DNA from: a virus
Length of the DNA stretch: 45,226 bases
IMG/VR virus record: IMGVR_UViG_3300018080_000267
Coordinates: 1-45,226 of that record
Reading direction: 5' to 3' (one strand)
The notes under the pieces are model-generated. The model had not been told where the DNA came from. It saw only the letters and a program-made list of their open reading frames with translations, and ran no database searches. Of the stretch, positions 16,795 through 40,889 are shown piece after piece (position 1 is the stretch's first letter; each line of letters starts with the position of its first letter). The position numbers and the translations under genes are program-made.

Positions 16795-19700
16795 TTACCA
16801 CCTATAATTAACTTCAAATCTATATACATAGAAAGTTCTATTTCCACTACTAAGATCGGCATTTGTTGAAATTTTCGCATAAATTGGAGCCCCCTCACAA
16901 GTATTAAAGCCATATGCAGACACACTTAAAACTGTGGGGGTGGGTGATGTCCCCGTCCCTATTGGAACGGTAGTATTTGTGCCTATGTTATTCATGTCTC
17001 TAACGTATAAAGTGCCTGATTGTGTTGGAGATCCATTAGTACAATATATTGCACTTGATACGTCTAAGATATAAACGCCATGTGGTAGGTATTCATTTAA
17101 ATCAACAATCCAATCAAATGACATTACATTTGAATCTGCCTGACGGCCATGCCATTCTTGAGCCACAATATCTAACCAAGGCCGATCAGTCATTTCAACC
17201 CACGAATCATAACGACCAGTATTTATATCTCCATAACTAGAAGAGCCAAGTCCAACACTCGCCTGCCCACACATGCCACCTATATAAGCTGTGCCTAATT
17301 GGTTTTTGTTTCTCCCAACAGTCCAACTAGACGGGGCCGCAATTACGCGATCATCAGTCGCTGCAACATCAACATACGAACTATCCACAAAATTACCAAC
17401 TACAACTCCCCTAGTAGAATTAGGATCTCCGCCCGTCTCTATGTAAATATCCACATCATGTTCGATGGAGGTCCCATAACCTCGATACAACTCATTGCCG
17501 GTAACAATCTGTCCCTGACTAATAACCCCTACTCTCTTTCCTATATGTATCCCAACGCCATTATTAGGAAACGTACCATCTATCACAAACCCTTTGATAA
17601 TATTATTGGAAATTGTGCTGGGAGTATAAGAATATATTCCCCAGTTATACCAATAATCAGTGCCGTCAACAACACCCTGATCAATGTTGTTGCCAGTAAT
17701 TACCGCATTTGGCGCATCATTAGAATCAGATGGTATAACACTAATCGCCCTATTCATATAAGTTGACGCACTAGACCAATACCAGAAAGTGGGCTCTAAA
17801 TAACCTGCAAAGTCATGTGCTCGCAAAATATTGTTTGTTATACTTAACCCGCTCCTATCTGCGGGTGATGTAATATTACTTGTAGCACAATGAATCCAAT
17901 TACACTTATTATGATCTATCGCCACATTCCCCAAACTATATTCTGCAACATCGGTAGTAGCAAATGCATAATATGCCGCCGCCCCCACATGAGTTATTGT
18001 TCCAATGAAATGACACGTGTTGTTTGATATTCTTAGCCCGCTAGTAAAATCGGTACCAGATAACAAAGATGAATTTGTAACCTCTGTCGACGAAACCAAA
18101 AATCCAATCACACCACAGTGATTATTTATAACATCTACATTTACAGGCCTAAGTCCATAACCGGTTATATCGGTGCTATTAGCCGGGTTTGTTGGAGTTT
18201 CTGCAAAAGCCGTAACATAAATGCCTTGAGCGTAATTACATTTATTGTTCTCAATAATACAGTTGTGAGCCACCGCCGGCCCCGTCACAGCAGCGATTCC
18301 TCCCTCCAAATCAACCAAAGCTATCGCAGCCTGAATCTTTGCTGTTGCATTATTGGCATCATTAAATATATTATTTCTTATTTGATAATTCGAAACTATA
18401 TCGTCTTTATTCAGTTCAATGCTTATAAACGGGGGTCGTTGAGTAGTTAACGTAGAGGTAAATGAACAATCTTCTATTGTTACAGAATGACTCAATGTTG
18501 GATCTGCCCCACTTCCGGCACCACCTTGACCAGCACGATAAATACAACCATTACCAGTGTTTATATGATCATTTGCCGTATAAGCCGGAAGGCCTGTTGG
18601 ATCATAAACAAAATGCATATTACGCAACGTCACCAAGCTATCTACTAACAAACCTTGCCCTGTGGTAACAGTAAATATGGCACCATCGCCCTCAAAAATA
18701 ACTGGAACAAGAAAACCGGTCAGATCCAAACTAGCATCTACGTCAAATGCCCCGCGAACCCTAATTTTACAAACGCCACCAGTATAATTAACGTCATAGT
18801 TGTTTACCCAGGCTTTAATTGCGTCAATAGTATGAAAATTTCCAACAAAATCTTCTGTGGACCATACTAGTGAATGCAACGCATTGCTAGAATCAACAAA
18901 CTTGCGCACATCATCTACATCTGACGGAGTAATTGTAGTGCTGGCAACCAAAGATGTTACAATTGCTATTGGTGTTAAATCTTTTCGCGTATTAACTAGC
19001 TCAGTAAATGTTACAGAAGGAACATAATATACATTGCCGCTCTGATTAGACTCCGCAAAATACTGCACCTTCGTTGTAGTCAATAGAATAGACTCTAACT
19101 GATTTTCTTCATTCACACAGACCGCCCAATCAACCGTTACTGGGGGCGCCGGATTTGGAGGAGACTCTGGGAATATTTCTGGAATTGTAACGGACAAATT
19201 ATTAACAGTACTAATATGCCCATTAACTAAAGCGATCCCACCTTTGAAGAAAATCTCTCTATTATCTGTCGGGTTTATATAATCAAAATCTAATCCCCTT
19301 ACAACACCGTTCTCATGTAATAACCTATCTCCGGCAGAAATATAATCCAAAGCTGATTTTGTAAAATCAGTTTCATCTACACTTCCAAATTGTCGTTTAT
19401 CTACAACGTGTTCAACAATGTCTGAGTTGATTATTCTGTCCCAGTTTACTTCGCACGTAGCAAGAAGCATTATTTCATCGTCTTGTTGCAACGAACTAAA
19501 TAATTCTATATCAACATACCTCGGGGTTCCTCCGCCCCCGGCAGCTCCATCACTTAATATAAAATTGCCAGGACTAGTATTATCAACATCAACAAACTTT
19601 AAGTCAATATAATCTAAATTTGTCTCATCATAAAAGCGTGTAACAGCATCTTTCCGACCATAAGTCATCGGTCCTGTAGATAAAATAGCCCCACTAGCAG

Positions 19701-22173
19701 GATCTCTTTGACCAATTTGACCTATAAACTCTCCAGATGTTGTATCGTAACTATGAATATAAAAACGAATATATTTATTAAATGTAGTTGTACTGTCTCG
19801 ATATCCGCGTAGTTTTGATGACACATTAACTATATGCCAATTTGTAGTAGATAACCACAAACCTCCTGGAGGGCTTGGCGCTGATTGTTCTGCATGGTCC
19901 GGCATTCTAGCCCGCTCATGACTGAATGTTTTACCCTCTTCCGTAACATAAACCTCATGTAATCTGCGATATTTGTCACTTGTTGTGGTAACATCAATAA
20001 CATTTTGATTATTAAAGCTAACAGAATCTTCAGAAAAATATATTCTAACTGGAAGCGGAGGCTCAGAAGAAAAACCAAAACCGACACCAGTACCATGAAT
20101 TGAATTAATTACAGTTATTAGTGTCTGATCTGGAGTTCCAACACATACATTAAAAACAACTTCCTTTATAATAAAGCGGCCATAATCAACATCATAATAA
20201 AGCGGATCTGCAAAATCTACAGAAGGCTGAACCACAATGGTTTTTCCAGGTTTTAACTCTGCCGCTTTAAGATCTTTTGGTATTGAATATGTTGTTTCTA
20301 CGGTAAATGGACCTATAGGATTTCTATTATAAATATACCCATCCCAATATCCCTCACCATCTGCATTATATGTTTCTGCAAAGTCATCGCGCTTTCTTCC
20401 ATTTACAATATAATATCGCTGCTTTAGCGGAACAATAACTTTGGTGGGCATCTGAGCGGCCCACTCATCAGAAAATGTGCCTTGATATGCTGGGCTTGCC
20501 TCGTCTGCATGAGTAGCCCCTAATCCCAATGCATCAAACGTATCTCCAGCCGCCTCCCCTATTACATTTTCAGTATATCCACTAACCGTTAAGGTGCCGG
20601 AACTATTTACACCTTTAATAATCGCAAAGCTGGCACAATTAATTGCATCAGCCAACATTATTCCAAACTCGCCCTCATGAGCAAACGCAATAAATCTATA
20701 ATTATATCCCATTTCACGCAGTTTGTTATTTGTCTCTTGTACTACGGTTTCTAATGTATAATCACCTGGAGTTGTTCCACCATTTCCAGTTACATCTATT
20801 CCAGGTAAGAAGATCACATGTTCTGCCGGATTGCCTGTAGGATATAACTCTAAATAAAGATTATAATGCTCATTATCTAATTGACCAGCATCAAATCCCA
20901 AACCAATAGCCATAGCACCACGTGGATTACCTACAATTGCACTGCTGAGAATATAATCAAAAGAACCAACAGGAGTGGCGTTTGCAGCCGCCACAGCTAA
21001 AACACCAGCGGTTTTGGTATCATATAATGGACGATCTATTCTGGCATATGCATTATATCCGTCACTATCATACAAATTCACGCCATTTAATCTTACAACC
21101 CATGTGGTATCTGGAGTATATCTTAAAGAATCTATAATATACGAAGCAGACACACCATTTCCGTAATTAATAGTAATAACATCACCAGATTTAACGCGAC
21201 CAAATTGAGAATCAAAAACAAAATCAGTATTATCCGGATCGAATACAACCAAATCATCCCCGATAGTTAAACTATCTACAGGTTCGCTCTTAGGGGGGTG
21301 AACTAAGTATGTCACTACAGGTGTTGGAGGTACTACATTTTCTTTATATCCATCAGGTAAACATGGCCCTTGCGATCTTGTAATTTTTGGAACAGCATTA
21401 GCATGTTGGGTTGCTCGGTGTTGCCCAATATTAATTACCTCATAATCATCAATTGCCTGAAAAGCCTTTTGCGCATCCGTGGCTGTCTTTGGAATTTCTA
21501 TGAAATTATCAGTATTTACACCTATACCAGATGCAAAATGGGCGTCTCCGGTAATATTATTTTCGTGATTTATAAATGCCGTGTTAATTTCATCTAATGC
21601 TTCACCTACATTTTTAGCAGCGCGCATTACTCCGTTTCGATCTTTCAACCCTGCCCATGTAAAGGTTGGATCTCTCGGATCTGTAGGAACAGCATTTAAA
21701 TCAATATGAGTTCCAACATGACGTGCCGAAGATGTACCATCAGCCAACAAAGAGGCACCAGAAATATGCGCATGTAAATCAGAAAATATAGTATTAGTAA
21801 ATGACACCAATGAGTTCAATAATGCCGTATTAGACATTATCAAAGTATGCAAATCAGATGTCGAATAATTTAATGTAAGTTTTGATTCTTTAATGCCAGC
21901 GTTTAATCCAACATGAACATCAGTTATCGGCAAGGTAACCAAACCCACAGACGCCAATGCAGAGGCTTTAATTGTTCCATTGGGATTTATAGACACATTT
22001 AAACGATCTGCAACTGAATTTAGACTTCCAGACGGATCAATCCCTAATTCATTCTCAATCGCAAATACCGCCTCGCGAAGTTGATTTATGGCATCTCCAC
22101 CCACCTCCGTAATATTATCATCTACGCGAATAATAGTAGTATCGTCATCTATTTCAAATGGGTAAACACTCAT
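16795..22173 (-). CDS. Giant tail fibre/spike with right-handed beta-helix region
   Basis: At 1792 residues this is the longest protein in the window. The N-terminal ~260 residues (opening TTIIRVDDNITEVGGDAINQ) look like a virion-attachment region with short helices and repeats of 'HxG/HxD' type (HLH-like turns around ARHVGTHIDLNAVP). The middle has several beta-sandwich stretches. From about residue 1190 to 1640 it shows repeating short strands of the type 'ISNNTCHFIG' and 'IENNKCNYAQG', the Asn-ladder pattern of pectate-lyase-like beta-helices. This is common in spikes that bind or cut polysaccharides. The last ~150 residues match the end of the 1202-residue spike at 22629-26237 (RNKNQ junction, LPxGVxxxD, terminal xRYKW/NYRW). 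Catalytic residues cannot be assigned by eye. Confidence 0.72.
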   Translation of the reverse strand: MSVYPFEIDDDTTIIRVDDNITEVGGDAINQLREAVFAIENELGIDPSGSLNSVADRLNVSINPNGTIKASALASVGLVTLPITDVHVGLNAGIKESKLTLNYSTSDLHTLIMSNTALLNSLVSFTNTIFSDLHAHISGASLLADGTSSARHVGTHIDLNAVPTDPRDPTFTWAGLKDRNGVMRAAKNVGEALDEINTAFINHENNITGDAHFASGIGVNTDNFIEIPKTATDAQKAFQAIDDYEVINIGQHRATQHANAVPKITRSQGPCLPDGYKENVVPPTPVVTYLVHPPKSEPVDSLTIGDDLVVFDPDNTDFVFDSQFGRVKSGDVITINYGNGVSASYIIDSLRYTPDTTWVVRLNGVNLYDSDGYNAYARIDRPLYDTKTAGVLAVAAANATPVGSFDYILSSAIVGNPRGAMAIGLGFDAGQLDNEHYNLYLELYPTGNPAEHVIFLPGIDVTGNGGTTPGDYTLETVVQETNNKLREMGYNYRFIAFAHEGEFGIMLADAINCASFAIIKGVNSSGTLTVSGYTENVIGEAAGDTFDALGLGATHADEASPAYQGTFSDEWAAQMPTKVIVPLKQRYYIVNGRKRDDFAETYNADGEGYWDGYIYNRNPIGPFTVETTYSIPKDLKAAELKPGKTIVVQPSVDFADPLYYDVDYGRFIIKEVVFNVCVGTPDQTLITVINSIHGTGVGFGFSSEPPLPVRIYFSEDSVSFNNQNVIDVTTTSDKYRRLHEVYVTEEGKTFSHERARMPDHAEQSAPSPPGGLWLSTTNWHIVNVSSKLRGYRDSTTTFNKYIRFYIHSYDTTSGEFIGQIGQRDPASGAILSTGPMTYGRKDAVTRFYDETNLDYIDLKFVDVDNTSPGNFILSDGAAGGGGTPRYVDIELFSSLQQDDEIMLLATCEVNWDRIINSDIVEHVVDKRQFGSVDETDFTKSALDYISAGDRLLHENGVVRGLDFDYINPTDNREIFFKGGIALVNGHISTVNNLSVTIPEIFPESPPNPAPPVTVDWAVCVNEENQLESILLTTTKVQYFAESNQSGNVYYVPSVTFTELVNTRKDLTPIAIVTSLVASTTITPSDVDDVRKFVDSSNALHSLVWSTEDFVGNFHTIDAIKAWVNNYDVNYTGGVCKIRVRGAFDVDASLDLTGFLVPVIFEGDGAIFTVTTGQGLLVDSLVTLRNMHFVYDPTGLPAYTANDHINTGNGCIYRAGQGGAGSGADPTLSHSVTIEDCSFTSTLTTQRPPFISIELNKDDIVSNYQIRNNIFNDANNATAKIQAAIALVDLEGGIAAVTGPAVAHNCIIENNKCNYAQGIYVTAFAETPTNPANSTDITGYGLRPVNVDVINNHCGVIGFLVSSTEVTNSSLLSGTDFTSGLRISNNTCHFIGTITHVGAAAYYAFATTDVAEYSLGNVAIDHNKCNWIHCATSNITSPADRSGLSITNNILRAHDFAGYLEPTFWYWSSASTYMNRAISVIPSDSNDAPNAVITGNNIDQGVVDGTDYWYNWGIYSYTPSTISNNIIKGFVIDGTFPNNGVGIHIGKRVGVISQGQIVTGNELYRGYGTSIEHDVDIYIETGGDPNSTRGVVVGNFVDSSYVDVAATDDRVIAAPSSWTVGRNKNQLGTAYIGGMCGQASVGLGSSSYGDINTGRYDSWVEMTDRPWLDIVAQEWHGRQADSNVMSFDWIVDLNEYLPHGVYILDVSSAIYCTNGSPTQSGTLYVRDMNNIGTNTTVPIGTGTSPTPTVLSVSAYGFNTCEGAPIYAKISTNADLSSGNRTFYVYRFEVNYRW

Positions 22174-26370: not shown

Positions 26371-28014
26371 TTACACAACCACTAAAGTGTGTGTGTGCCC
26401 CAAATTTTCAGTTACCACACCATTAACAACCTCATGATTATGCCCCAATGATACAGATGTTGTTTGAGTAATCTGATTAATATTTACTATACCCTCATTT
26501 ACCCTAACCGTATGTGTATGTGGGATAGATGTTCCAGAAGGTCCCGCCAAAAACCCAATAGATGTAGAAAGATTCTCGGGCATAGTAGATGTATCATCAA
26601 TAAGCTTAATCTGATTAATAGGATCGGTTTTACGAACTCTCTGAGCGCTAAACTTTTGCGATCCACTTTCGCCTAAGAATAATTTGTTCCTTGTAACATT
26701 AAGAATTTCATAATAAAACATTCTAGTTCCGGCTTCATCATATCTAACAATAACATCTCGATCTTTTACAGCTGGTACAACCAATGTCCAGCAATTAGGT
26801 ATAAAATCGGATTCTAATCCAGCACTTCCAGGTTTCAAATCTTCTGTAGCCGGCTCAAATCTCACCAATATTCTACCATCGCTTCTACGAGGATTAAAAT
26901 ATTGCTCGTATCCAACAACAAATCCAGACCCATAACATAGGGGGCAACGATCTTCTGGATATTCAGCTGTTGGCAAATAACAAGAACATCTAACACCAGT
27001 ACGAACTCTTCTTAATAATGCAACTGGCTCGCCCGTTGTTTCCAGCAACATTTCTTCTCGCTGGTGATTAATTTCATTTATTGGCAAACCACGTAATTGT
27101 CTGCCAACTCCAAGATATCCATCAGCACAATAATGTTCTCCACCAATATAAGTACCTATACAACCACCCCGAATAAGAACCTCTGGATTTGTTCTATGCC
27201 AACCAGCATAATCATATTTGGGAAAATCCACTTGTGATGCATCGCTAGCGCTTAAATCAGATGTAAGCAAATCTTTATCCACTGTACGATAACCATCTGT
27301 CCTAGTATAAGCATAATTTGGATAAGAAAAATTAGCAGTTTCTTGCAATGTTAAATAATTTTCTTCTTCATATCCCTTCCAAAATCTTACCAAAGGATCT
27401 CTTATAGCAACCCCATCCCAACCATTGATCGTATGTGATCTTGCATGTGTTTCTCCCCAACCCCTATTATCAACCGTTCCAACTAATAAAGAATTACTTG
27501 GTATATCTTTTGATACATATCTAATCCATTCTGTACCAATCTGGACAATACCATACGCAGGAAACAATTGAATGTCTGATACCGGAATTGCCAAATCAGT
27601 TGCAGTAATATCACTCAATAATACTGCCTCGGGATACACCTTTAATTCAGGAAAACCATCAGGCAACAAATCCAAATTATACCAATCAGACAAATACTCA
27701 AATGCCCTAACGGCAAAGTAATATGTTTCTCCAGGCGTTAAATCTAAAATGTTTGCACTTAAATATCCATCCAAATGAGCTACAAATTTTACACCATCAG
27801 TAAAAACATTCTCTAAAATAGTAGAATAATATATATTATATCCTATAGAGTATAAATACCCATCCCCATTTGGACCATCTGGATATACATAACCATCTGG
27901 ATAGGCCCTACGCCATTCTAAAAATATTGAATATCCATCATTTTTAGACGCAGCTGTTTTAGCACCAGCTTCTGCTGGTGGAAAATATACAGGTGTTGGA
28001 ATATAACATGCCAT
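26371..28014 (-). CDS. Tail protein with fibronectin-III domain, Cys cluster and His-rich C-terminus
   Basis: The likely start is the ATG at 28014 (MACYIPTPVYFPP); another lies 15 nt upstream and neither has a strong SD. Residues ~35-110 form a fibronectin type III domain (YSIFLEWRRA, then YNIYYST, ending LTPGETYYFAVRAF). Residues ~340-375 have a zinc-ribbon-like cluster, CSCYLPTAEYPEDRCPLCYG, with the CPxCYGxG pattern. The last ~70 residues have three His pairs, HTHTV, LGHNHEV and LGHTHTL, resembling the metal-binding HxH motifs at spike and fibre tips. It starts the spike/fibre block and is followed by two giant spikes. A virion role in adsorption or tail decoration is inferred; the exact location is unknown. 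Confidence 0.65.
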   Translation of the reverse strand: MACYIPTPVYFPPAEAGAKTAASKNDGYSIFLEWRRAYPDGYVYPDGPNGDGYLYSIGYNIYYSTILENVFTDGVKFVAHLDGYLSANILDLTPGETYYFAVRAFEYLSDWYNLDLLPDGFPELKVYPEAVLLSDITATDLAIPVSDIQLFPAYGIVQIGTEWIRYVSKDIPSNSLLVGTVDNRGWGETHARSHTINGWDGVAIRDPLVRFWKGYEEENYLTLQETANFSYPNYAYTRTDGYRTVDKDLLTSDLSASDASQVDFPKYDYAGWHRTNPEVLIRGGCIGTYIGGEHYCADGYLGVGRQLRGLPINEINHQREEMLLETTGEPVALLRRVRTGVRCSCYLPTAEYPEDRCPLCYGSGFVVGYEQYFNPRRSDGRILVRFEPATEDLKPGSAGLESDFIPNCWTLVVPAVKDRDVIVRYDEAGTRMFYYEILNVTRNKLFLGESGSQKFSAQRVRKTDPINQIKLIDDTSTMPENLSTSIGFLAGPSGTSIPHTHTVRVNEGIVNINQITQTTSVSLGHNHEVVNGVVTENLGHTHTLVVV

Positions 28015-28062
28015 TATATCACAATGCAAAAATATAAGTAGCTTTTAAATTTTAAAATAATT

Positions 28063-28590
28063 TTACGACGTTACAATTCGAACAATGTCATCAATAAAAC
28101 CCCTTAATTGTTTTCTTCTCTTTTTACGCTCTTTAAGTGGTACATTATGATGATCTAGCACTCGTTTAACATACCGATCTGCCGCTGACTCACCATCTGT
28201 TTCTTCTATATATTCTGTCTGATTTTGAAAACTTTCTTGTTCGAATTCATTGTCTAAATAATCATCAGCAGATGATCCGGAACTACCCGTTGTAGGACCG
28301 TCACCAAAACATTGTTGAAGAAAATGCGTCAACTCATGTACCATATAATGCTCTATAGATTCAGAATCATTTAACAAATTATAATTAAAGTAAATTATTC
28401 CATTATCCGTTCTCGCAGAAACATCCAAATTAGCAAAACACATTGGTACCAAATCTATAAAGGAAGGATCAACGTCATGCTCTTTACACAATTCTTTAAA
28501 TGTATTACTTTTTCTTACAGTCTCACGTATATTATTGATTATATTCAATAATTTATCATAAGAAGTATCTGAATATACGTTCTCACCCAT
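28063..28590 (-). CDS. Zinc metallopeptidase-like protein (HExxH)
   Basis: The start chosen is the ATG at 28590 (MGENVYSDTSYDKLLN), because a GAGG SD lies 7 nt upstream; an ATG 12 nt earlier lacks one. The 175-residue product contains VHELTHFLQQ (H85, E86, H89), the zincin active-site helix. An acidic stretch follows with a candidate third ligand in the segment EFEQESFQNQTEYI. The family appears in several large phages as a small metallopeptidase of unknown substrate. The C-terminus is strongly basic (KERKKRRKQLRG). It lies in a cluster with a trypsin-like protease and an acidic protein. Peptidase activity is predicted, its target (virion maturation or host) is not known. Confidence 0.7.
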   Translation of the reverse strand: MGENVYSDTSYDKLLNIINNIRETVRKSNTFKELCKEHDVDPSFIDLVPMCFANLDVSARTDNGIIYFNYNLLNDSESIEHYMVHELTHFLQQCFGDGPTTGSSGSSADDYLDNEFEQESFQNQTEYIEETDGESAADRYVKRVLDHHNVPLKERKKRRKQLRGFIDDIVRIVTS

Positions 28591-28623
28591 AAAACGCCTC
28601 ATAAAACAGGTACTTATAGTAAA

Positions 28624-28953
28624 TTATTCTTCTTCCTCATGACCACCCGACTCAATAAAACGAAGCTTTTCATAATAATCAAAGTCATCTAACGACTTAG
28701 GTTCTTTGCTTCGATCTCCGCGTCCAGGATGCTCTACTAAATGATCCATAGCTATTTCTGTGGCAATGTCTTCACCATCATCTTCTTCTTCGTCAATATG
28801 CTCATATTCAACTTCTACGCCTTCTCTAAGAGCTTTTTGATCAAACTCATCAGGAGTCATGCCGGCAGCTAAACCACCTGGCAGATGCTCCTCCCATTCA
28901 GCTATTTTTTTTACAAATAAACCTGCTAATTTTAATATTTGTTCTGCTTTCAT
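28624..28953 (-). CDS. Acidic conserved phage protein (DUF5661-like)
   Basis: A 109-residue, very acidic protein. Its core (GMTPDEFDQKALREGVEVEY, then IATEIAMDHLVEHPG and FDYYEKL) matches the pattern I remember for the DUF5661 family: 'x-F-D-x-x-x-L-x-x-G-x-x-V-E-x-E-H-T-D, A-x-x-I-A-x-D-H-L, Y-Y-x-x-L'. The family has no known function and is often found in phage genomes near this metallopeptidase type. Here an extra acidic insert (EEEDDGED) interrupts the usual histidine region. No clear SD is seen. Family naming is from memory. Confidence 0.55.
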   Translation of the reverse strand: MKAEQILKLAGLFVKKIAEWEEHLPGGLAAGMTPDEFDQKALREGVEVEYEHIDEEEDDGEDIATEIAMDHLVEHPGRGDRSKEPKSLDDFDYYEKLRFIESGGHEEEE

Positions 28954-28976: not shown

Positions 28977-30101
28977 CTATTTGCACCATCTCTTAAATAC
29001 AAAAATTCCCAAACTTACAAATAATATTATAAACAAAAAATCAATTAACGTAAAATTACTATTACTACAGCTCGTATCACAATTACAACCATCCTTTGAA
29101 TAATCCGTCGCTGGCATATCTGACTCCACTGAACTATCTGTATCTTCGGCATCTGGACATGTAGGACAAGTTCCAGCATCGCAAGGGTCACAAGAGTCAC
29201 AAGGTTCACAATCTTCGCACGGATCACACGGATCACATGAATTTTCTGAAACTTCCTGTTTCATTTCTTCATAAGCCCAATCAATCCATTGCAAATAAGA
29301 CCCCGGAATAGTATAAACAGCACCATGACCACAAGCTGCTACAGTAGGTGCCCTAGATGTGACCCCAGTTACATATACTTTATCATTATGAATTACATAA
29401 GCTGGCCCACCACTATCACCATAGCACGCATTTCCAGCATCTGGATTTTCACTTTCATCTTCTCCTAAAATCATCTCGTATTCACCACGCCAAGTTACAG
29501 GAACATCAACCGCGTATAACTCTCCTCCAGCAACATCTTTTTCATGTCGTCCATAACCAGCAATTGTCACAATATCCCCCACACTTATATTGTCGTTATA
29601 TTCTGATGGTGATAAAATTGGAACAAACACTATATTTGAAGGAGATGGAGAATTATCAACCAATAAAAGAGCTATATCATTATAATTGTCTCCAGCAGTA
29701 CCAGGATCAATTTCTTCGTCTAATTCTTGATCTTGTGGAGTTTCACCATAATACGAATCTTCGGCTTTCATTTTAGCTAAAACGGGAAAAAATGTACTAT
29801 AATCTGCTTCTCCTGGTTTTTCATAACCATACGCTATAGACATAATACTTGGGCTATAATTAACACAATGCGCAGCCGTCAACACTAGATCTGGCCTTAT
29901 AAGAGTTCCAGTACAATTTGGTGTCGATACATTTCCAAGCATTAAAGCAACAATAGATGGATATTCTGAATGTAAAGCTGGCGCCCCATTGATGATTGGC
30001 CCTTGATTCATAGACAAATTTTCTGACGCAGATCCCGCATTATATCCACACCCTATACAAAACAATAAGGCAGCCAACAAATATAAAAATTTATTACTCA
30101 T
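28977..30101 (-). CDS. Lipoprotein/membrane-anchored trypsin-like serine protease (S1 family)
   Basis: The ATG at 30101 (MSNKFLYLLAALLFCIGC) was chosen because SD GGAAGAA lies 5 nt before it; an ATG 24 nt further upstream has none. The 374-residue product opens with a signal peptide and lipobox-like CIGC (Cys18). The trypsin domain follows: mature start near PIINGAPA, catalytic His in LTAAHC, Asp in YNDIALL and Ser in CYGDSGGPAY. All three catalytic residues are present. A linker with repeated Cys pairs (about residues 289-318) leads to a second Cys group (GCNCDTSC), a transmembrane helix (FLFIILFVSLGIFVF) and basic KRWCK. The end resembles bacterial sorting signals of the MYXO-CTERM type. 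Such a protease is unusual in a phage and is probably host-derived. Confidence 0.82.
   Translation of the reverse strand: MSNKFLYLLAALLFCIGCGYNAGSASENLSMNQGPIINGAPALHSEYPSIVALMLGNVSTPNCTGTLIRPDLVLTAAHCVNYSPSIMSIAYGYEKPGEADYSTFFPVLAKMKAEDSYYGETPQDQELDEEIDPGTAGDNYNDIALLLVDNSPSPSNIVFVPILSPSEYNDNISVGDIVTIAGYGRHEKDVAGGELYAVDVPVTWRGEYEMILGEDESENPDAGNACYGDSGGPAYVIHNDKVYVTGVTSRAPTVAACGHGAVYTIPGSYLQWIDWAYEEMKQEVSENSCDPCDPCEDCEPCDSCDPCDAGTCPTCPDAEDTDSSVESDMPATDYSKDGCNCDTSCSNSNFTLIDFLFIILFVSLGIFVFKRWCK
29157..29238 (-). repeat. Degenerate tandem repeat encoding Cys-x-x-Cys units
   Basis: The coding strand repeats units like TGTGATCCG and TGTGACTCT, giving the peptide pattern C-D-P-C-D-P-C-E-D-C-E-P-C-D-S-C-D-P-C. 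It is the flexible linker between the protease domain and the membrane anchor, and likely varies in length between relatives by slippage. Confidence 0.7.
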
Positions 30102-30545: not shown

Positions 30546-30596
30546 AAAAAAAAGCCCGATAACAAAAAGTATAATGATTTAGTATATTTGTCGGGC
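30546..30596 (-). terminator. Rho-independent terminator after the neck protein gene
   Basis: On the minus strand a GCCCGA/TCGGGC stem, extended by CAAA/TTTG, closes a ~31-nt AT-rich loop and is followed by eight T. The stem overlaps the last codons of the gene 30579-31481. The following 190 nt (30385-30545) hold no credible gene. Confidence 0.65.
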
Positions 30597-31481
30597 GCGA
30601 AGGAATCGCATTCGAGCTATAGCAGGATACCTTGCAGTACTTATCGTTAATGTTCCAAGACCAATTGGTGACGGTTTCATGTTAAACTTAATTAATTTTA
30701 CTTTTTCAAAGTGATGAGTTAACAAAGTGCTCCATCTTGAATTCATTAGTTCCGCAACACTTGGTGGATTAAAATTAATACCCTGATCTGTAAGTTGAAA
30801 CTCTCTACCTCGCTCTAATAACATTTTACTAGACAAGGCTAATAACTCGGCTCCCTCAACTATTACATCATGAAACTGCTGAAGAATTTCCGTATCTTCA
30901 AAGGTAAAAAGCGTCCAATGTGGTATCTCATTAAACATAGTTAGCGAATTACCAAGAAATGATACTAAATTATCAACGCCATATATATCACAATCTACAT
31001 AGACGTCATTGCCCCACTCATCGGTAGTATTTACTTTACCACGAGAATCTAATCTGGCACGCAAAGATTTCAATAACACATTAATATTATGAATTGCCAA
31101 CTGACTATAACAAAAGCCAGGATCATCTCCAAGGTGCTCATATCCATCAGTATTTACCGCCGGCATCATGGTATTCTGAACTACAAAATTAAACGCACCA
31201 GATACTCTAAAACCATTCAGCGTACCATCCCAAATATCATTCCAAACACCTATACAAGCATTCCAACCAACTGGGAAATCATAACCATACAACCCAATGC
31301 CCGAGCGATAAACGCCTAAATTTGTAGGACCGACAACAACATTTCCACTTGGTTCTTCAATAGTTATAGTAGGAAGAGCATCTAGATCTGCGGGATTACC
31401 ATCTGGTCCTCGAAATTGGGCCTGTAGCCTAATTGTCTCCGTATGACCTACAGTTTCTCCGCGTGTCCTGTAAATAACCAT
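30579..31481 (-). CDS. Conserved virion/neck protein (300 aa)
   Basis: The N-terminal ~100 residues are a beta-sandwich (ETIRLQAQFRGPDGNPADLD, TITIEEPSGNVVV, YGYDFPVG) like those of immunoglobulin-type phage structural domains. The C-terminal two thirds are helical, with long helices (LFTFEDTEILQQFHDVIVEG, LLALSSKMLLERGREFQLTD) and an Arg-rich end (RMRFLRARQIY). I recall homologues in several large environmental myoviruses beside the shorter beta-sandwich protein found here just upstream. A connector, neck or portal-side role is plausible but not shown. SD AGAGGT precedes the start. The gene ends inside a strong terminator. Confidence 0.55.
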   Translation of the reverse strand: MVIYRTRGETVGHTETIRLQAQFRGPDGNPADLDALPTITIEEPSGNVVVGPTNLGVYRSGIGLYGYDFPVGWNACIGVWNDIWDGTLNGFRVSGAFNFVVQNTMMPAVNTDGYEHLGDDPGFCYSQLAIHNINVLLKSLRARLDSRGKVNTTDEWGNDVYVDCDIYGVDNLVSFLGNSLTMFNEIPHWTLFTFEDTEILQQFHDVIVEGAELLALSSKMLLERGREFQLTDQGINFNPPSVAELMNSRWSTLLTHHFEKVKLIKFNMKPSPIGLGTLTISTARYPAIARMRFLRARQIY

Positions 31482-33162: not shown

Positions 33163-34245
33163 TTATAATATTTTTCTTAGCTTATTGATAAAATATTCTA
33201 CATCATGAGACCTATATTCGCCCCAATGACTAATTCTTAAATAATCCTGACCATCACTAGGTCTCCCCAAAGCTTCCATTAAAGGAGACCCGCCGGAATA
33301 TAAAGAACCACAAGCGCTTCCCAGCCCACAATATATCCCGTCATTTCCAAGTAAATTCAATAATCTAAATGCATCTCCATCTTTTGGTGTCTTAGCATAT
33401 GTTGTATTAGGACAACGATTTGCATTTTCTCCAATAATATCAAATCCTAATGTTTTTAATTCTGGCTCTAATACATCTCTAAACTCAATCATATTCGCGT
33501 AACGCTCATCAAAAGTATTTATTGCTTCTTCTAACGCCACCGCAGAAGATGCTATGCCTGCTGTATTAGGTGTTCCAGAAATATCTCTAAAATACCTTGA
33601 ACCTACTCCAAACTCTCTCCAAACACTAGAATCTGATAAATACATAAATCCAACACCACCAGGACCACCAAACTTGTGCGCTCCAAACACAGCTATGTCT
33701 GGATTTAACTTGCTTATATCCACTTTAATCTTTCCCAATGATTGAGACATATCCGTAAAAATATAATTATCATTTGTACTATTTATATTTTGAATTGTTC
33801 CGATTTCATTTTGCATATGAATACATACAATATTTTTGGCACTTTCAAATAATACCTCGCCATCAGAGTTTACTTTCAGCTTTTTTATAAGTACCGAGTC
33901 AAACGCTGCATCTACAGCCGTATTTATAGCGGGATGTTCTATAGGAGATATAAAAACCTCATCATCCCCAGACATACGTACCATATGAGCTAATAATTGC
34001 GCCCCCCATTCACAAGCCTGGGTACATCCACTAGTAAAAACAATTTGATTAGGATCTTTCGCATTAATCAATTTAGCTATTTTAGATCTTGCCTCTTCAA
34101 TAGCGTTTTGTGCAGCACGACCAGTCGCTGACGGAGATAACGGATGTCCATGACCAGCAATAGAATCATTAAACTTATGATAAAAATCCATTACATGATG
34201 ACTCATTGGTAAATGAGCGTTAGCATCTAAAAATAATTCTTTCAT
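33163..34245 (-). CDS. Cysteine desulfurase (NifS/IscS-type, PLP-dependent)
   Basis: The 360-residue enzyme would take sulfur from L-cysteine as a persulfide and pass it to an acceptor. All key residues are readable: the N-terminal FLDANAH, the PLP-stacking His104 (SPIEHPA), Asn146 in NEIGT, Asp165 and Gln168 (TDMSQS), the PLP lysine Lys191 in GAHKFGGPGGVGF, and the SGTPNTAG substrate loop. The active-site Cys312 is in GLGSACGS, and an Arg lies in LRISHWG. The sequence therefore looks active. It is placed among fibre and neck genes and next to an HNH protein. No scaffold protein or sulfur-modification genes are visible here. Possible uses are Fe-S cluster supply, tRNA thiolation or DNA phosphorothioation. 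Confidence 0.9.
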   Translation of the reverse strand: MKELFLDANAHLPMSHHVMDFYHKFNDSIAGHGHPLSPSATGRAAQNAIEEARSKIAKLINAKDPNQIVFTSGCTQACEWGAQLLAHMVRMSGDDEVFISPIEHPAINTAVDAAFDSVLIKKLKVNSDGEVLFESAKNIVCIHMQNEIGTIQNINSTNDNYIFTDMSQSLGKIKVDISKLNPDIAVFGAHKFGGPGGVGFMYLSDSSVWREFGVGSRYFRDISGTPNTAGIASSAVALEEAINTFDERYANMIEFRDVLEPELKTLGFDIIGENANRCPNTTYAKTPKDGDAFRLLNLLGNDGIYCGLGSACGSLYSGGSPLMEALGRPSDGQDYLRISHWGEYRSHDVEYFINKLRKIL

Positions 34246-36392: not shown

Positions 36393-36480
36393 CGCGGAAT
36401 GGATACCATTCCGCGGGAGGATAGGGCTATATCCTTTGAATTATCAAGAAGCTCCCGCCTTTAGGCGGGAAAGTAGTCAC
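36393..36480 (+). ncRNA. Omega-RNA / IS200-IS605 right-end-like structured element (no TnpB present)
   Basis: In the 201-nt gap after the methyltransferase gene, the plus strand has a perfect hairpin CGCGGAATGG-ATA-CCATTCCGCG (36393-36415), then GGATA...TATCC. This is followed by TTGAATTATCAAGAAGC, a stem TCCCGCC-TTTA-GGCGGGA (36453-36470) and the end AAGTAGTCAC. From memory, 'CAAGAAGC + GC-rich TTTA-loop stem + ...GTCAC' is typical of the 3' end of TnpB guide RNAs and transposon right ends. GCGGGAG (36413-36419) can also pair with CTCCCGC (36452-36458), a possible pseudoknot. It lies opposite to all genes and its end overlaps the methyltransferase stop. Alternatively it is simply a minus-strand terminator. 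Confidence 0.45.
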
Positions 36481-38582
36481 TTATTGTTTATAAACATGTA
36501 TATACTCTCATATTTTTGCATACCAGCAGATTTGCTCAAATGACTCCTTATTGTTCGCAAATAAATTTCCTCACGAACATTTCCAAATATATCTATTGCC
36601 ATATTTAACATTCTGGGGTAATTCTTAACATTCAAGCCAAACCATTTTCCAGGCTTTAACATATACTTTACATTTTCAAGCGTCTTTTTCCAATATACAT
36701 CATAAAAATAATTTTCCCCACGATTATATGCTTGAGACAAATCATCAGAATAATATTCTTGATTAAAATATGGCGGACTACTCCAATATAAATCAATAGA
36801 ATTTTCTTTATCGCAATAGTCCTCAGAACCAGACTGTATTAGTTTATAATCTTTAAAATTAAAATACCTTGCCATTTCCTCTAATTCAACCACAGTAAGA
36901 GGATCCGTTCCAATATATTTTCTACCACATGACATTGCCCCTAATAATCTAGCCCCATAACCACAAGAATAATCACCAACAACATCGCCGGGATTAGAGT
37001 ATTTTAAACATACAAATTTTGCAATAGATGGTTTGAACATAGTAATGCTAGGAACCAACCTCATACTACGCATACCTTGTATCATCATTCTGTGACTAAT
37101 ATTAAAAGTTTCGTTTACTTTAGAATGCCAATTAATAACAAGCCGATTTTTTACTAATTTCAATAAAATATTATCATCTTTCCATAATTCAACCATATTT
37201 TTTTTGCCAGGCTCGGTAGCGTGACAAAAACTCTTACAAAAATGTTTACATATACTTGTTGCTGTAGAACTATTATTAAACAATTCATTTGTTGCTATAT
37301 CCGGATTATAATCGCACAATTTCTTATAATCAGAATTTAATTTTTTATCAGGATATTCGGGATACATCCAACCTTGTTGCCTAAAATGATTAAATAGCGG
37401 TTGAACATATTTTTCCCTATCTTCTTTTGGTAGTGGTTTTATAAGCCCAGCTGTTATCGGAATACCATCTACTTCTACTATTTTTGTATATGGATTGTCA
37501 TTTTTTCTTTTTATCCTTTTTACTGTAGCAGCGCTTACATTATATTGTTTAGAAATATTTTCTATATTATTATTTTGATTTAAATTGTTTATAATATCAT
37601 GTTTAATACTTTCTGGTATATTATATTTTTTACGACCTATTTGTCTGTTTTCTTGCTGTTTTTTAAGTACAAGGTATTTACTATATTTTCTATCTAACCT
37701 TGTTTCTAATGATGAGTTTCTATATAACCAATTCATAATAAGATCCACTTTTTCATTGCCATTAGATTCCATATCAAAAGTATTATTACCAGTTTTAGAA
37801 ATACAATAAAAATTTACAATAATATTCAACTTATCTAATATTAATCTTTGTATTTTTTCACACATCTCTTCAGTAGACGTTAATGACCACTTCCACTCTT
37901 TAGTTTGCTGCCTCATAGTAATACAGCCATCACCATCAAATAACCCTCTAATAAAATGGTTGTTTAAATCTTTACGCAACCATTTTGGAAATTCTATAAT
38001 AAAACTTTTAGCCTGTGGACATCCCTTTTCTTCCAACATATCACACATATGTTTACTATACATTCTTATACAACATGTCGGATATCTATTATTGCTTAAA
38101 TATCTTTTAATGTTTTGTTTTGGCATATTAATAAAACTACAAAATTTTACTAAATGATTATAATCTTCATCCTTTAATGTTAAATGTGCCGTATTTGTTC
38201 TTTTACAATTATAGGCATCAGCATAAAGAAAACCAAGCCAATATGCTTTTTGTGGTGTGTTTATATTATCAAAAATATCTTCATTAAAAAAAGTAAATCT
38301 ATGACTTTCATTTCTATTTCTTAATATTTCTTTTTCTTTTGCCCACTTTTGTATTCTACGTTTATCAATTGAATATTTTTTTCCTAAATTTTTGGCTGAT
38401 ACACCCAGTTCATATAATTCAAGTATTTTTTCTATTTTTGAATCATTAAATTGTTCTTTTTTTATAGAATAATTGTTTTGTTTTATTGTTTTTATAATTT
38501 GTCTATGGTCTTCTTCTAAATTAATAGCTATTCTCTTAGCTGAAAATCCGTTTTCTGTCATTTCTTTTATTTTATTTTGCAT
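36477..38582 (-). CDS. HTH-LAGLIDADG homing endonuclease fused to DNA methyltransferase
   Basis: The 701-residue protein has two N-terminal helix-turn-helix-like units (about residues 1-85) and a LAGLIDADG endonuclease domain. Its two motifs are AYWLGFLYADA (113-123) and FIRGLFDGDGCI (210-221). A third HTH (about 322-361) precedes a methyltransferase domain from about 370. The methyltransferase shows the AdoMet motif GDYSCGYGARLLGA (536-549) and the catalytic SSPPYF (601-606), the N4-cytosine/N6-adenine type. The C-terminus is ordinary. It is not intein-like: no N-terminal Cys/Ser or terminal His-Asn is seen at the junction. SD AAAGGTTC precedes the ATG. Selfish endonuclease joined with a DNA-modifying enzyme is unusual; the methylated base is unknown. 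Confidence 0.82.
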   Translation of the reverse strand: MQNKIKEMTENGFSAKRIAINLEEDHRQIIKTIKQNNYSIKKEQFNDSKIEKILELYELGVSAKNLGKKYSIDKRRIQKWAKEKEILRNRNESHRFTFFNEDIFDNINTPQKAYWLGFLYADAYNCKRTNTAHLTLKDEDYNHLVKFCSFINMPKQNIKRYLSNNRYPTCCIRMYSKHMCDMLEEKGCPQAKSFIIEFPKWLRKDLNNHFIRGLFDGDGCITMRQQTKEWKWSLTSTEEMCEKIQRLILDKLNIIVNFYCISKTGNNTFDMESNGNEKVDLIMNWLYRNSSLETRLDRKYSKYLVLKKQQENRQIGRKKYNIPESIKHDIINNLNQNNNIENISKQYNVSAATVKRIKRKNDNPYTKIVEVDGIPITAGLIKPLPKEDREKYVQPLFNHFRQQGWMYPEYPDKKLNSDYKKLCDYNPDIATNELFNNSSTATSICKHFCKSFCHATEPGKKNMVELWKDDNILLKLVKNRLVINWHSKVNETFNISHRMMIQGMRSMRLVPSITMFKPSIAKFVCLKYSNPGDVVGDYSCGYGARLLGAMSCGRKYIGTDPLTVVELEEMARYFNFKDYKLIQSGSEDYCDKENSIDLYWSSPPYFNQEYYSDDLSQAYNRGENYFYDVYWKKTLENVKYMLKPGKWFGLNVKNYPRMLNMAIDIFGNVREEIYLRTIRSHLSKSAGMQKYESIYMFINNK

Positions 38583-38703: not shown

Positions 38704-39489
38704 TTATGCGCCAATTACAACGCTCTTATTACCGCGAGCGACACCGCGTGGATTCACAATTCCAAGACCAATAATTTCACTTACCACCCATCCTAATTTT
38801 AGCTGCTTAGGCTCGTCAGCGGGAAGTACCTCAATGTCCTGACGAACAGGCATCACACCAACAAACTCTGGGTCTGCACATGCGTAAACGGTACCAGCAG
38901 GAACAATCTTAGAAACAAGAATGTCTGCGCCCCAAACATGAGCATAAAGACCAGTCTGTAGAATCTCGCGCTGAGTCACAGGATCAACCTCACCACCATT
39001 AGCACCAGCACCACCGCCAGCTGCCCAGTTTAGAATATCGGTGAACTCATTGATGTTCATGAAAAACTTTGTGGTTACCAAGTCCCAACGATCTACCTGA
39101 ACCTTTAGTTCAACTAGGTCGCGCTTTAGCATTCCACCATCAGCAATATCTTGAGCAACGTTCTCGACAGTAGCAGCAGCATCTAGAGCGGCAAATACAT
39201 TTGCATCCTCTTGAGCCATAATTTCCTGCCTTGCCTTTTGAACGGCACGGTCAATCACGTTAAACCGACGTCTTTTAACTTCAGCAATACGAACGGTTGG
39301 ATTGGAGTAAAGCTCGAACTCGGGAACGGTTACACGATCACCGAATACGCGACTCTCAGGACCAGAGCCATTGCTTGAAACAACAACTGCAGCCACATCG
39401 ATATCGCGGTCATAAACTGGTAGGGCTCCTTGAGGAAGGGGATCAACCACGAGGGCACGTCTAGCAATTCCCTGATAATCAAGGTTTCG
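38704..39489 (-). CDS. Major capsid protein, exon 2 (codons 76-336)
   Basis: After splicing, the capsid frame continues as R-N-L-D-Y-Q-G-I-A-R and encodes 261 residues to a TAA. The exons join ...MANPIR to RNLDYQGIARRALVVDPLPQ, a continuous sequence I recognise as the conserved start region of an HK97-fold MCP group. Further family signatures are GALPVYDRDIDVAAVVV and SNPTVRIAEVKRRRFNVIDR. The mature protein is 336 residues. An apparent ATG at 39492 is a by-product of the intron's last bases (ATG ends the intron). Base composition is visibly less AT-rich than that of the endonuclease, consistent with a highly expressed virion gene. Followed by a strong terminator. Confidence 0.88.
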   Translation of the reverse strand, partial: RNLDYQGIARRALVVDPLPQGALPVYDRDIDVAAVVVSSNGSGPESRVFGDRVTVPEFELYSNPTVRIAEVKRRRFNVIDRAVQKARQEIMAQEDANVFAALDAAATVENVAQDIADGGMLKRDLVELKVQVDRWDLVTTKFFMNINEFTDILNWAAGGGAGANGGEVDPVTQREILQTGLYAHVWGADILVSKIVPAGTVYACADPEFVGVMPVRQDIEVLPADEPKQLKLGWVVSEIIGLGIVNPRGVARGNKSVVIGA

Positions 39490-40664
39490 CATTTGTTACA
39501 GGTCAGGGAACCTGGTTAGGTCATTTCTGCCTAACTCCTTATATTACTATAAGGGTCGGACTCTATCTTCTCCAATTTTGGAGTTTAGCATATTAGTCTC
39601 TGAGGATTCAGGCATAATTTTATATTTCATACTATCTATTACATGAGGCCTAATAATATCTGAAAGTTTTTGAGTATTTTTTTTATTTAAAGTAAGTTGA
39701 AAATATTCTTTTTCTTTAAATTTAAACCCCATAACTTTAGATCTTAAATCAAAACACCTTTTTAATAGATTTTGTAGTTTTATATTTTCTTCATATGTAA
39801 AGCCCATTGTCGCTATTCTCATATTTATTCCTGAATTTAGATTTCCGTCATCACAAATCCAAACTGCTAGTGCCAATGGAGTCATGTATATATCTAAATT
39901 GTCTGGAATATGTTTAATTCTTTGATTATCGTAAAACATGTCGGCAAATGAATTTAAGCCTTGATGACATATTGTTGCGGTCTGTAGCATTATAGAATTT
40001 TTTCTTTTATCTATATTTTCTCTCCATGCATTAACAAAAGGATCTAACATTGATATTTTCCAATGAAAATATTGTTTTTGTTTTTTGCAATGTCCAAAAG
40101 ATAGCTTATATAAAGAATTTTTGCCATCTCTATATAAACATCCATCTCCTAATAACATTCCAACTAAAATTTGTTTTTGAACATAATTTATAGGAATTGC
40201 TCTGAGATGATTATATCTTCTAGCCGAAGAGTCTGGAATTCTATTATTTGCTCTTAACAATCTTGATATAGCCGGAGCAGATATTTCGAACCATTTTGCT
40301 ATTTCTTTTATAGATTGTCCAGAATCAAACATTGATATAGCTTTTTTGACTTGATCATTTGTAAAATCAGATATGTATTTCTTCCTCCATTGGACTTTAT
40401 TTTTTAAATTTTTTCTTACATATTCATATGAAACATTATGTTTTGCAGCAATGTCTCGAATATTAAGTCCAAGTTTATATTCTTTTATTAAAACATCTAA
40501 TTTTACTGTCATGCCTGTCTTTCCTGCTGATTTTCTGTATCATTCTAACTCTGTTACTATAACGTGTTTTAAATTATCTACAGTGATTAATTTCTTGAGT
40601 GTTATAGTAGTTAGACATTCAGAGGTTCCAGCATATAGCTAAATTTTACATCCGCCGAAAATTA
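39490..40664 (-). ncRNA. Group I self-splicing intron in the major capsid gene
   Basis: The 1175-nt intron lies between exon bases ...CCTATCCGT and CGAAACC.... P1 is exon ATCCGT with intron GCGGAT, ending in the required U-G pair at the 5' splice site. P10 is intron TTTCG with exon CGAAA. The last intron base is G (omega-G). Near the 3' end the coding strand shows TCAGAGACTA (R-like, P7 5' side), the P8 hairpin CTCCAA-AA-TTGGAG (39583-39570) and AAGATAGAGTCC (S-like, P7 3' side). CAGGCAT at 40517-40511 can pair with ATGCCTG at 39615-39609, closing the loop that holds the endonuclease gene. All these elements are directly visible. Confidence 0.9.
39547..40512 (-). CDS. Intron-encoded LAGLIDADG homing endonuclease
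   Basis: The 321-residue protein has two N-terminal HTH-like segments (about residues 5-45 and 50-90: SIKEIAKWFEISAPAISRLL) and a two-motif LAGLIDADG domain: ILVGMLLGDGC (115-125) and LALAVWICDDG (213-223). Two motifs in one chain mean it can act as a monomer. It is expected to cut intron-less capsid genes at the splice junction and so spread the intron. The ATG lies inside a helix of the intron that closes the coding loop, and the C-terminal codons run through P8 and the P7 3' side up to the TAG. The gene is more AT-rich than the exons. SD CAGGAAAG precedes the ATG. Confidence 0.88.
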   Translation of the reverse strand: MTVKLDVLIKEYKLGLNIRDIAAKHNVSYEYVRKNLKNKVQWRKKYISDFTNDQVKKAISMFDSGQSIKEIAKWFEISAPAISRLLRANNRIPDSSARRYNHLRAIPINYVQKQILVGMLLGDGCLYRDGKNSLYKLSFGHCKKQKQYFHWKISMLDPFVNAWRENIDKRKNSIMLQTATICHQGLNSFADMFYDNQRIKHIPDNLDIYMTPLALAVWICDDGNLNSGINMRIATMGFTYEENIKLQNLLKRCFDLRSKVMGFKFKEKEYFQLTLNKKNTQKLSDIIRPHVIDSMKYKIMPESSETNMLNSKIGEDRVRPL

Positions 40665-40889
40665 ACGGATAGGATTGGCCATCGCTTGAGCAAGAGCAAT
40701 CTTGCCATCATGACTCATAATAGCGCGAGAGATCAGCTCATCCCGCTTGTCATCAGAAAGGCCCTGACCACTAAGAGCAGTATTAGAAGGCTGATTTTCC
40801 TCTAATACTGAAGCATACTTAGAAATGGTCTGAAGAGCATCTTGCAAACTCGATGCATTAAGCTCTCCCTGTGTATTAAACATATTCAT
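40665..40889 (-). CDS. Major capsid protein, exon 1 (codons 1-75)
   Basis: The first 75 codons start MNMFNTQGELNASSLQDALQ with SD AGGAG before the ATG at 40889. The sequence (SRAIMSHDGKIALAQAMANP) is the N-terminal arm region of the MCP. In unspliced RNA it ends at a TAA that is the first intron triplet, giving a 75-residue fragment. Splicing after T40665 restores the frame into exon 2. The gene follows a terminator and the decoration-protein gene. The two exons together make a 336-residue HK97-fold capsid protein. Confidence 0.88.

Follow-up and report, generated by a model that had tools for sequence, protein, structure and literature searches.

We find that a huge-phage genome fragment encodes an S1 (chymotrypsin-fold) protease with anchor-like signals at both ends, and our preferred interpretation, to which we assign a probability of about 0.45, is that it is a host-derived accessory gene (moron) carried by a phage-G-like huge phage of a Myxococcota-like or predatory-lineage host, its product acting as an anchored ectoprotease that would trim the surface of the infected cell. 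The window analysed here is the whole of a 45,226-base virus record (37% GC), in which the large ORFs lie nearly all on the minus strand and a tRNA search found no tRNA. It represents part of the genome of a phage-G-like huge phage; its close relative L002 has a major capsid protein with 54% identity to the counterpart in Bacillus phage G. That the protein itself is an exported, membrane-held S1 protease we regard as very likely (its parts are given in Table 1).

Residues 36-273 of the protein match PF00089 (E = 3.9e-21; 76.3 bits against a cut-off of 20.6), with a further match to PF13365 (4.6e-07). The initial annotation had proposed a complete catalytic triad, and this is borne out, since H78, D142 and S230 lie in a full S1 domain scoring above the Pfam cut-off; all three are invariant in a 27-row alignment of the protease and its homologues. 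The other features by which S1 proteases are recognised (GDSGGP, D229, equivalent to chymotrypsin D194, and the N-terminal I36) are all present, the I36 column holding Ile or Val in all rows and D229 being invariant. In an AlphaFold2 model built with 27 homologues, most of the S1 core has a block pLDDT of ~90-97, an acidic loop near residues 121-140 is of low confidence (51-59), and helices are predicted at residues 2-16 and 352-373 (22 residues). Foldseek matches of this model are S1 proteases (E ~1e-16). Parts of the propeptide and linker fall below a pLDDT of 50, with the linker low at 313-317 and 320-347, and the model thus suggests a low-confidence, probably disordered linker.

Table 1 Coordinates of the protease gene, its parts and neighbours in the window, and of lipobox genes in related phages
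Feature	Position	Strand	Basis or remark
S1 (chymotrypsin-fold) protease gene with N- and C-terminal anchor-like signals	28977..30101	-	374 aa, ATG at 30101
Signal peptide, residues 1-17 (MSNKFLYLLAALLFCIG), predicted helix 2-16	30051..30101	-	Sequence; AlphaFold helix
Lipobox-like Cys18 (FCIGC; Cys at -3)	30048..30050	-	FCLGC in orthologue
Presumed propeptide, residues 18-35, ending ...MNQGP/IING (slash marks the presumed cleavage)	29997..30050	-	S1-family alignment; activation inferred
S1 catalytic domain, residues 36-276	29274..29996	-	Pfam, AlphaFold, Foldseek, alignment
Triad codons H78; D142; S230	29868-29870; 29676-29678; 29412-29414	-	
Asp/Glu/Cys-rich linker, residues 277-336, with CDPCDPCEDCEPCDSCDPC array	29094..29273	-	Orthologue alignment; low pLDDT
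C-terminal tail, residues 337-374: DGCNCDTSC, hydrophobic helix 352-373 (28983-29048), KRWCK	28980..29093	-	
Conserved partner gene, 96 aa	30094..30384	-	Stop overlaps protease start by 8 nt (ATGAGTAA); same order in L002
DUF5661 protein directly downstream, same insert in both phages	28624..28953	-	PF18905 4.7e-07; L002
Flanking conserved gene, HELTH zincin-like, one slot edge	28063..28602	-	In 21/22 other records
Flanking conserved structural gene (300 aa), other slot edge	30579..31481	-	
Tandem lipobox genes: HtrA/MarP-like S1 protease and HEIGHLLGARH protein	L166:8353-9782 (G016:188353-189782)		
Gly-rich/Cys-repeat lipobox proteins	L224:4293-5009; L236:12629-13438; L249:5567-6292		In G013, G011 and G004

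The sole orthologue found in IMG/VR (L002:10004-11098, record 3300009128_000008) is 64% identical to the protein by tblastn and 69% in alignment, and it retains Cys15, Gly17 and Cys18, the catalytic residues, CDAGT..CPTCPDA, DGCNCDTSC, the helix and a KR.CK end. The earlier description of a phage-coded S1 protease with an export signal and two anchor-like ends is therefore upheld, its parts being present here and kept in the orthologue, and homologues are not confined to phage proteins lacking signal or anchor, given that many bacterial relatives also keep both ends. Two of the details proposed stand only in part. The lipobox-like Cys18 exists and is kept in the orthologue, but a strict PS51257-like rule fails in both phages owing to the Cys at -3 (FCIGC and FCLGC), and the site is accepted only by a relaxed rule that allows Cys at that position. 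Likewise, the window's protease does have the Cys-repeat linker, in which 9 of some 28 residues are Cys, whereas the CDPCDPCEDCEPCDSCDPC array is mostly absent from the orthologue, which has a shorter Glu/Pro-rich stretch in its place and keeps the CDAGT..CPTCPDA part of the linker only.

The layout of the C-terminal tail is not at chance level: a rule of Cys, strongly hydrophobic stretch and basic end fits 2 of the 375 non-overlapping ORFs of at least 100 aa from 22 phage loci, namely the protease and its orthologue. Resemblance to a MYXO-CTERM type signal had been suggested, and the tripartite layout is indeed there (Cys signature GCNC, helix 352-373, KRWCK), but the likeness does not extend to a curated-model match or to the score of our own profile. 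The NCBIfam sorting models, TIGR03901 and TIGR03382 included, give no match to either phage tail at E up to 10, and the same models recognise a made-up positive control tail at 30.9 and 23.8 bits. Our own profile, made from the tails of 41 S1 proteases (most of them from Myxococcota), scores the two phage tails at 0.2 and 3.0 bits (members 13.9-45.4; null maximum 4.1). With a working positive control and profile scores at null level, formal MYXO-CTERM membership is ruled out. Across 15 genomes or records searched, TIGR03901 scores above its cut-off in 8, all Myxococcota-like and with 10-115 matches each, and has no match in the phages among them. Proteins handled by myxosortase carry a GCGC-type Cys motif, a TM helix and an Arg cluster, and are lipidated and cleaved ahead of their type II secretion (PMC11980579). 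The phage protein is like these MrtX-sorted proteins in its GCNC (against the generic GCGC), TM helix, short basic end and N-terminal signal peptide, and differs from them in matching neither TIGR03901 nor TIGR03382. Going by its sequence, the phage tail could be processed by a myxosortase-like system or by another CPBP enzyme, or could be a plain TM anchor.

The designation 'trypsin-like' holds for the fold of the enzyme but not for its specificity. Alignment places N224, A251 and A261 at pocket positions 189, 216 and 226; position 189 is Asn in both phages as against Asp in 20 of the 26 other rows, and at positions 216 and 226 Ala takes the place of the Gly that prevails elsewhere. Consequently, as read from these residue positions, cleavage after Arg or Lys would not be expected, and the combination N189/A216/A226 would predict no simple specificity.

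When 85,000 species genomes were scanned with the alignment as a guide, the best relatives, among the matches listed, lay mainly in Deltaproteobacteria/Myxococcota. HMM matches at E<=1e-14 occur in at least 28 of 379 Myxococcota genomes and at least 6 of 58 genomes of an Oligoflexia-type phylum, these counts being lower bounds because at most 4-5 candidates per genome were scored in big phyla. Among the candidates scored, there were none in 398 Pseudomonadota-type genomes (the phylum of a Chromatiales genome) or in 396 Actinomycetota-type genomes (the phylum of a Saccharothrix genome), giving a Fisher p of 9e-15 for Myxococcota (28/379) against these two groups (0/398 and 0/396). Two of the best Myxococcota matches, L132 (LTAC... 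SDPIINGDKA ... GGCTCR...RRRDR) and L141 (DGGCGC...RRRSGSRRWC), together with L131, share the part order of the phage protein (signal peptide/lipobox, short propeptide, I(I/V)NG S1 domain, acidic/Pro linker and Cys-TM-basic tail) and its core motifs GELYxxD and GDSGGPAY...GVTSRA. They differ from it in being ~29% identical, in having D189 in most rows, and in their canonical lipoboxes and Arg-rich tails, whereas the phage tail is Phe/Ile-rich and ends in KRWCK. A lipobox and a Cys-TM-basic tail (by a home-made rule) occur together in 16 of 48 Myxococcota S1 proteins, in 1 of 2 from phylum-unassigned bins and in 0 of 67 sampled S1 proteins assigned to other phyla, the sampled homologues having been picked by similarity.

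A phylogenetic tree groups the phage pair with Myxococcota rows and a small number of Oligoflexia-type ones; the branch is long (1.42), its support is modest (82) and the placement is weak. Identity to bacterial relatives reaches ~30% at best, and thus no direct donor is identified; an exact-peptide scan of genomes for a close donor found none, and plasmid matches to the protease are ~25-31% identical only. The expectation that the protein would give a clue to the host group was nevertheless justified, its nearest bacterial homologues, among the matches listed, being Myxococcota S1 proteases of the same layout. A Myxococcota-like source of the gene appears likely, and the phage host lies most likely in Myxococcota or a related predatory lineage. 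As a separate observation, Gly-rich 'TGG' and Cys-repeat lipobox proteins of the related phages G013, G011 and G004 look myxobacterial by eye; a genome comparison for those of G013 gave low-complexity matches in 4/313 versus 1/329 genomes.

A different use for such an enzyme would be as a host-benefit (auxiliary) ectoprotease, digesting external protein for the feeding or predation of the infected cell and so raising phage yield. The closest relatives, among the matches listed, are Myxococcota S1 proteases, and many C-terminally tagged surface proteins of Myxococcota are hydrolases, some of them linked to predation (PMC11980579). However, the gene sits in a virion cassette and is presumably expressed late, when feeding help would come late, and an anchored enzyme would be better suited to acting close to the cell, such that we consider this explanation unlikely.

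Additional S1 proteases, of HtrA/Trypsin_2 type, are present at other positions in five related records (two of them near-identical), and the HtrA-like proteases of the related huge phages all begin with a lipobox-like signal by eye. Using a relaxed regular expression over eight phages, chosen partly for having S1 genes and not for lipoboxes, 30 of 2,668 ORFs have a lipobox-like start, and 5 of those 30 are S1 proteases; put otherwise, 5 of 6 S1 proteases have such a start (Fisher 7.6e-10), the sixth failing through an Arg in its hydrophobic stretch. In four other huge phages, phage G included, Trypsin_2 has no match. These HtrA-like proteases (L032-L036) resemble the window's protease in being phage-coded, in their lipobox start and in belonging to the same phage clade, and differ from it in having a Trypsin_2/HtrA-type domain, in lacking the C-terminal tail and in their genome positions. 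It is conceivable, if doubtful, that S1 ectoproteases anchored in the membrane have been acquired several times, each time independently, by huge phages of this clade as a general means of stripping the infected-cell surface, through protease-based superinfection exclusion or receptor destruction. To our knowledge such a mode is not described for known phage lipoproteins, which act by binding; a search for phage trypsin-like lipoproteins in the literature covered found none, and a jumbo-phage survey mentions neither trypsin nor lipoproteins.

In G016, the S1 lipoprotein gene adjoins a lipobox gene with weak reprolysin/matrixin-like matches, below cut-offs. This pairing with a matrixin-like metalloprotease, along with the export signals and structural-cassette position of the window's gene, would fit an enzyme exported to the periplasm or outer membrane that weakens the envelope at lysis, in concert with holin and endolysin. 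Yet no lysis genes are recognised next to the protease, and most relatives lack it and must lyse without it, which makes this role quite improbable.

The structural cassette that surrounds the gene is common to the window and 22 other huge-phage records, on contigs of up to 459 kb. The slot between the 300-aa gene and the zincin-like gene varies in content among the phages, with homing endonucleases as frequent occupants; each of these two flanking genes is missing from L009 alone, which starts inside the neighbouring gene. Among the related syntenic records, L002 is the only one with a protease orthologue, and its gene order around the protease is identical. The variability of the slot and the absence of the protease from the other relatives together indicate an accessory insert, not a core virion gene. 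From the 8-nt stop/start overlap (ATGAGTAA), the 96-aa partner gene and the protease are probably translationally coupled. As the gene is embedded among virion genes, its product might instead be a protease of the virion, with a role in processing structural proteins or in digesting surface layers at entry, but a signal peptide, lipobox-like Cys and C-terminal TM segment do not suit a virion protein that is assembled internally, and related records other than L002 keep the structural genes yet lack the protease; we judge this very unlikely.

Several other features of the window were recorded. The HELTH zincin-like protein has weak eCIS_core similarity (E 0.034, below cut-off). A homologue of NifS-like cysteine desulfurase lies in the structural cassette at 33163-34245 (-), and is also found in several related phages. 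A 701-aa ORF at 36477-38582 (-) combines a LAGLIDADG endonuclease part with a C-terminal part that has weak methyltransferase-like PHROG matches. The major capsid gene (39436-40889, -) appears to be split, with an N-terminal part at 40889-40665 and a C-terminal part from 39489, and a LAGLIDADG ORF (39547-40512) lies in the ~1.2 kb between them; Rfam gives no match at the gathering threshold. The tripeptide DGY is the most over-represented in the window (17 observed, 2.7 expected), mainly in the ORFs at 13398-15860, 16795-22173 and 26371-28029. The same holds for G016 (72 versus 9.5) and G013 (77 versus 20), the observation further takes in G001, G003, G004, G010 and G011, and 25 kb of phage G contain no DGY. 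The sites have mixed codons and no flanking consensus, and are concentrated in certain 20-kb blocks; some are conserved in nearly all relatives, others fall at loop or gap columns.

A search with the two-row alignment for further phage orthologues returned L002 again and nothing else, no close relatives of the protease were found in annotated phages, and a BFVD search gave weak viral S1 matches only, the named ones from eukaryotic or RNA viruses and many rows without a name. The orthologous protein has diverged by ~31%; the whole layout and gene order are retained, with the exception of the Cys array. Values of dN/dS against the orthologue are ~0.20 over the whole gene, with 0.17 in the S1 part and 0.21 in the C-tail, all rough because synonymous divergence is high; by these ratios, the gene and its orthologue are under purifying selection. 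The insertion hotspot, rich in homing endonucleases, might suggest a recently captured host gene riding as neutral cargo with no role in infection, but this is already disfavoured and scarcely credible, as triad, anchors and neighbours are kept in both phages and dN/dS is ~0.2 at high synonymous divergence.

Returning to an anchored ectoprotease acting on the infected cell, we envisage that the enzyme would be made late, together with the virion genes, exported by Sec, and attached to the envelope via the C-terminal tail, an N-terminal lipid, or both. Cleavage before an N-terminal Ile is the usual zymogen step in S1 proteases, and activation would here take place before Ile36, D229 being kept. 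Activation would release the enzyme from a lipid at its N-terminus, unless the propeptide stayed bound through a disulfide, so a C-terminal anchor would be what holds it in place; that this accounts for the presence of two anchors is a guess. The flexible linker would then present the active enzyme outward, where it could trim proteins that the infected cell itself displays. The gain for the phage would most likely lie in the removal of receptor-type surface proteins, such that superinfection is blocked and progeny are not lost on host debris. Surface or receptor trimming as the role of the protease is a tentative proposal, somewhat short of even odds, within which receptor removal and superinfection exclusion are plausible by analogy.

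The analogy is with two phage lipoproteins: Llp of T5, which blocks a receptor by binding it (PMC4728585), and Ltp of TP-J34, a non-enzymatic exclusion lipoprotein (PMC3952083). Phages thus do place lipoproteins on infected cells. Like these, the protease is phage-coded and is predicted from its sequence to be envelope-anchored and made in the infected cell; unlike them it is an enzyme, and would be a catalytic counterpart that may share their role. A bacterial parallel is VesB of Vibrio, described as a surface S1 protease with GlyGly-CTERM, a tripartite C-terminal tag (PMC13393428). VesB and the phage protein have in common the S1 protease, an unstructured linker, a tripartite C-terminal tag and surface anchoring (predicted for the phage protein), whereas VesB is bacterial, with a GG tag and another sorting enzyme, and has a signal peptide and propeptide, with no lipobox-like Cys mentioned in the description consulted.

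Our interpretation would tie an uncultured huge-phage group to Myxococcota-like hosts via a surface protein, and would offer a handle on how these phages alter the envelope. If related phages favour anchored proteases among their few lipoproteins, proteolytic receptor stripping would represent a new exclusion strategy, and, if true, anchored proteases would serve as metagenomic markers of phages that infect predatory bacteria.
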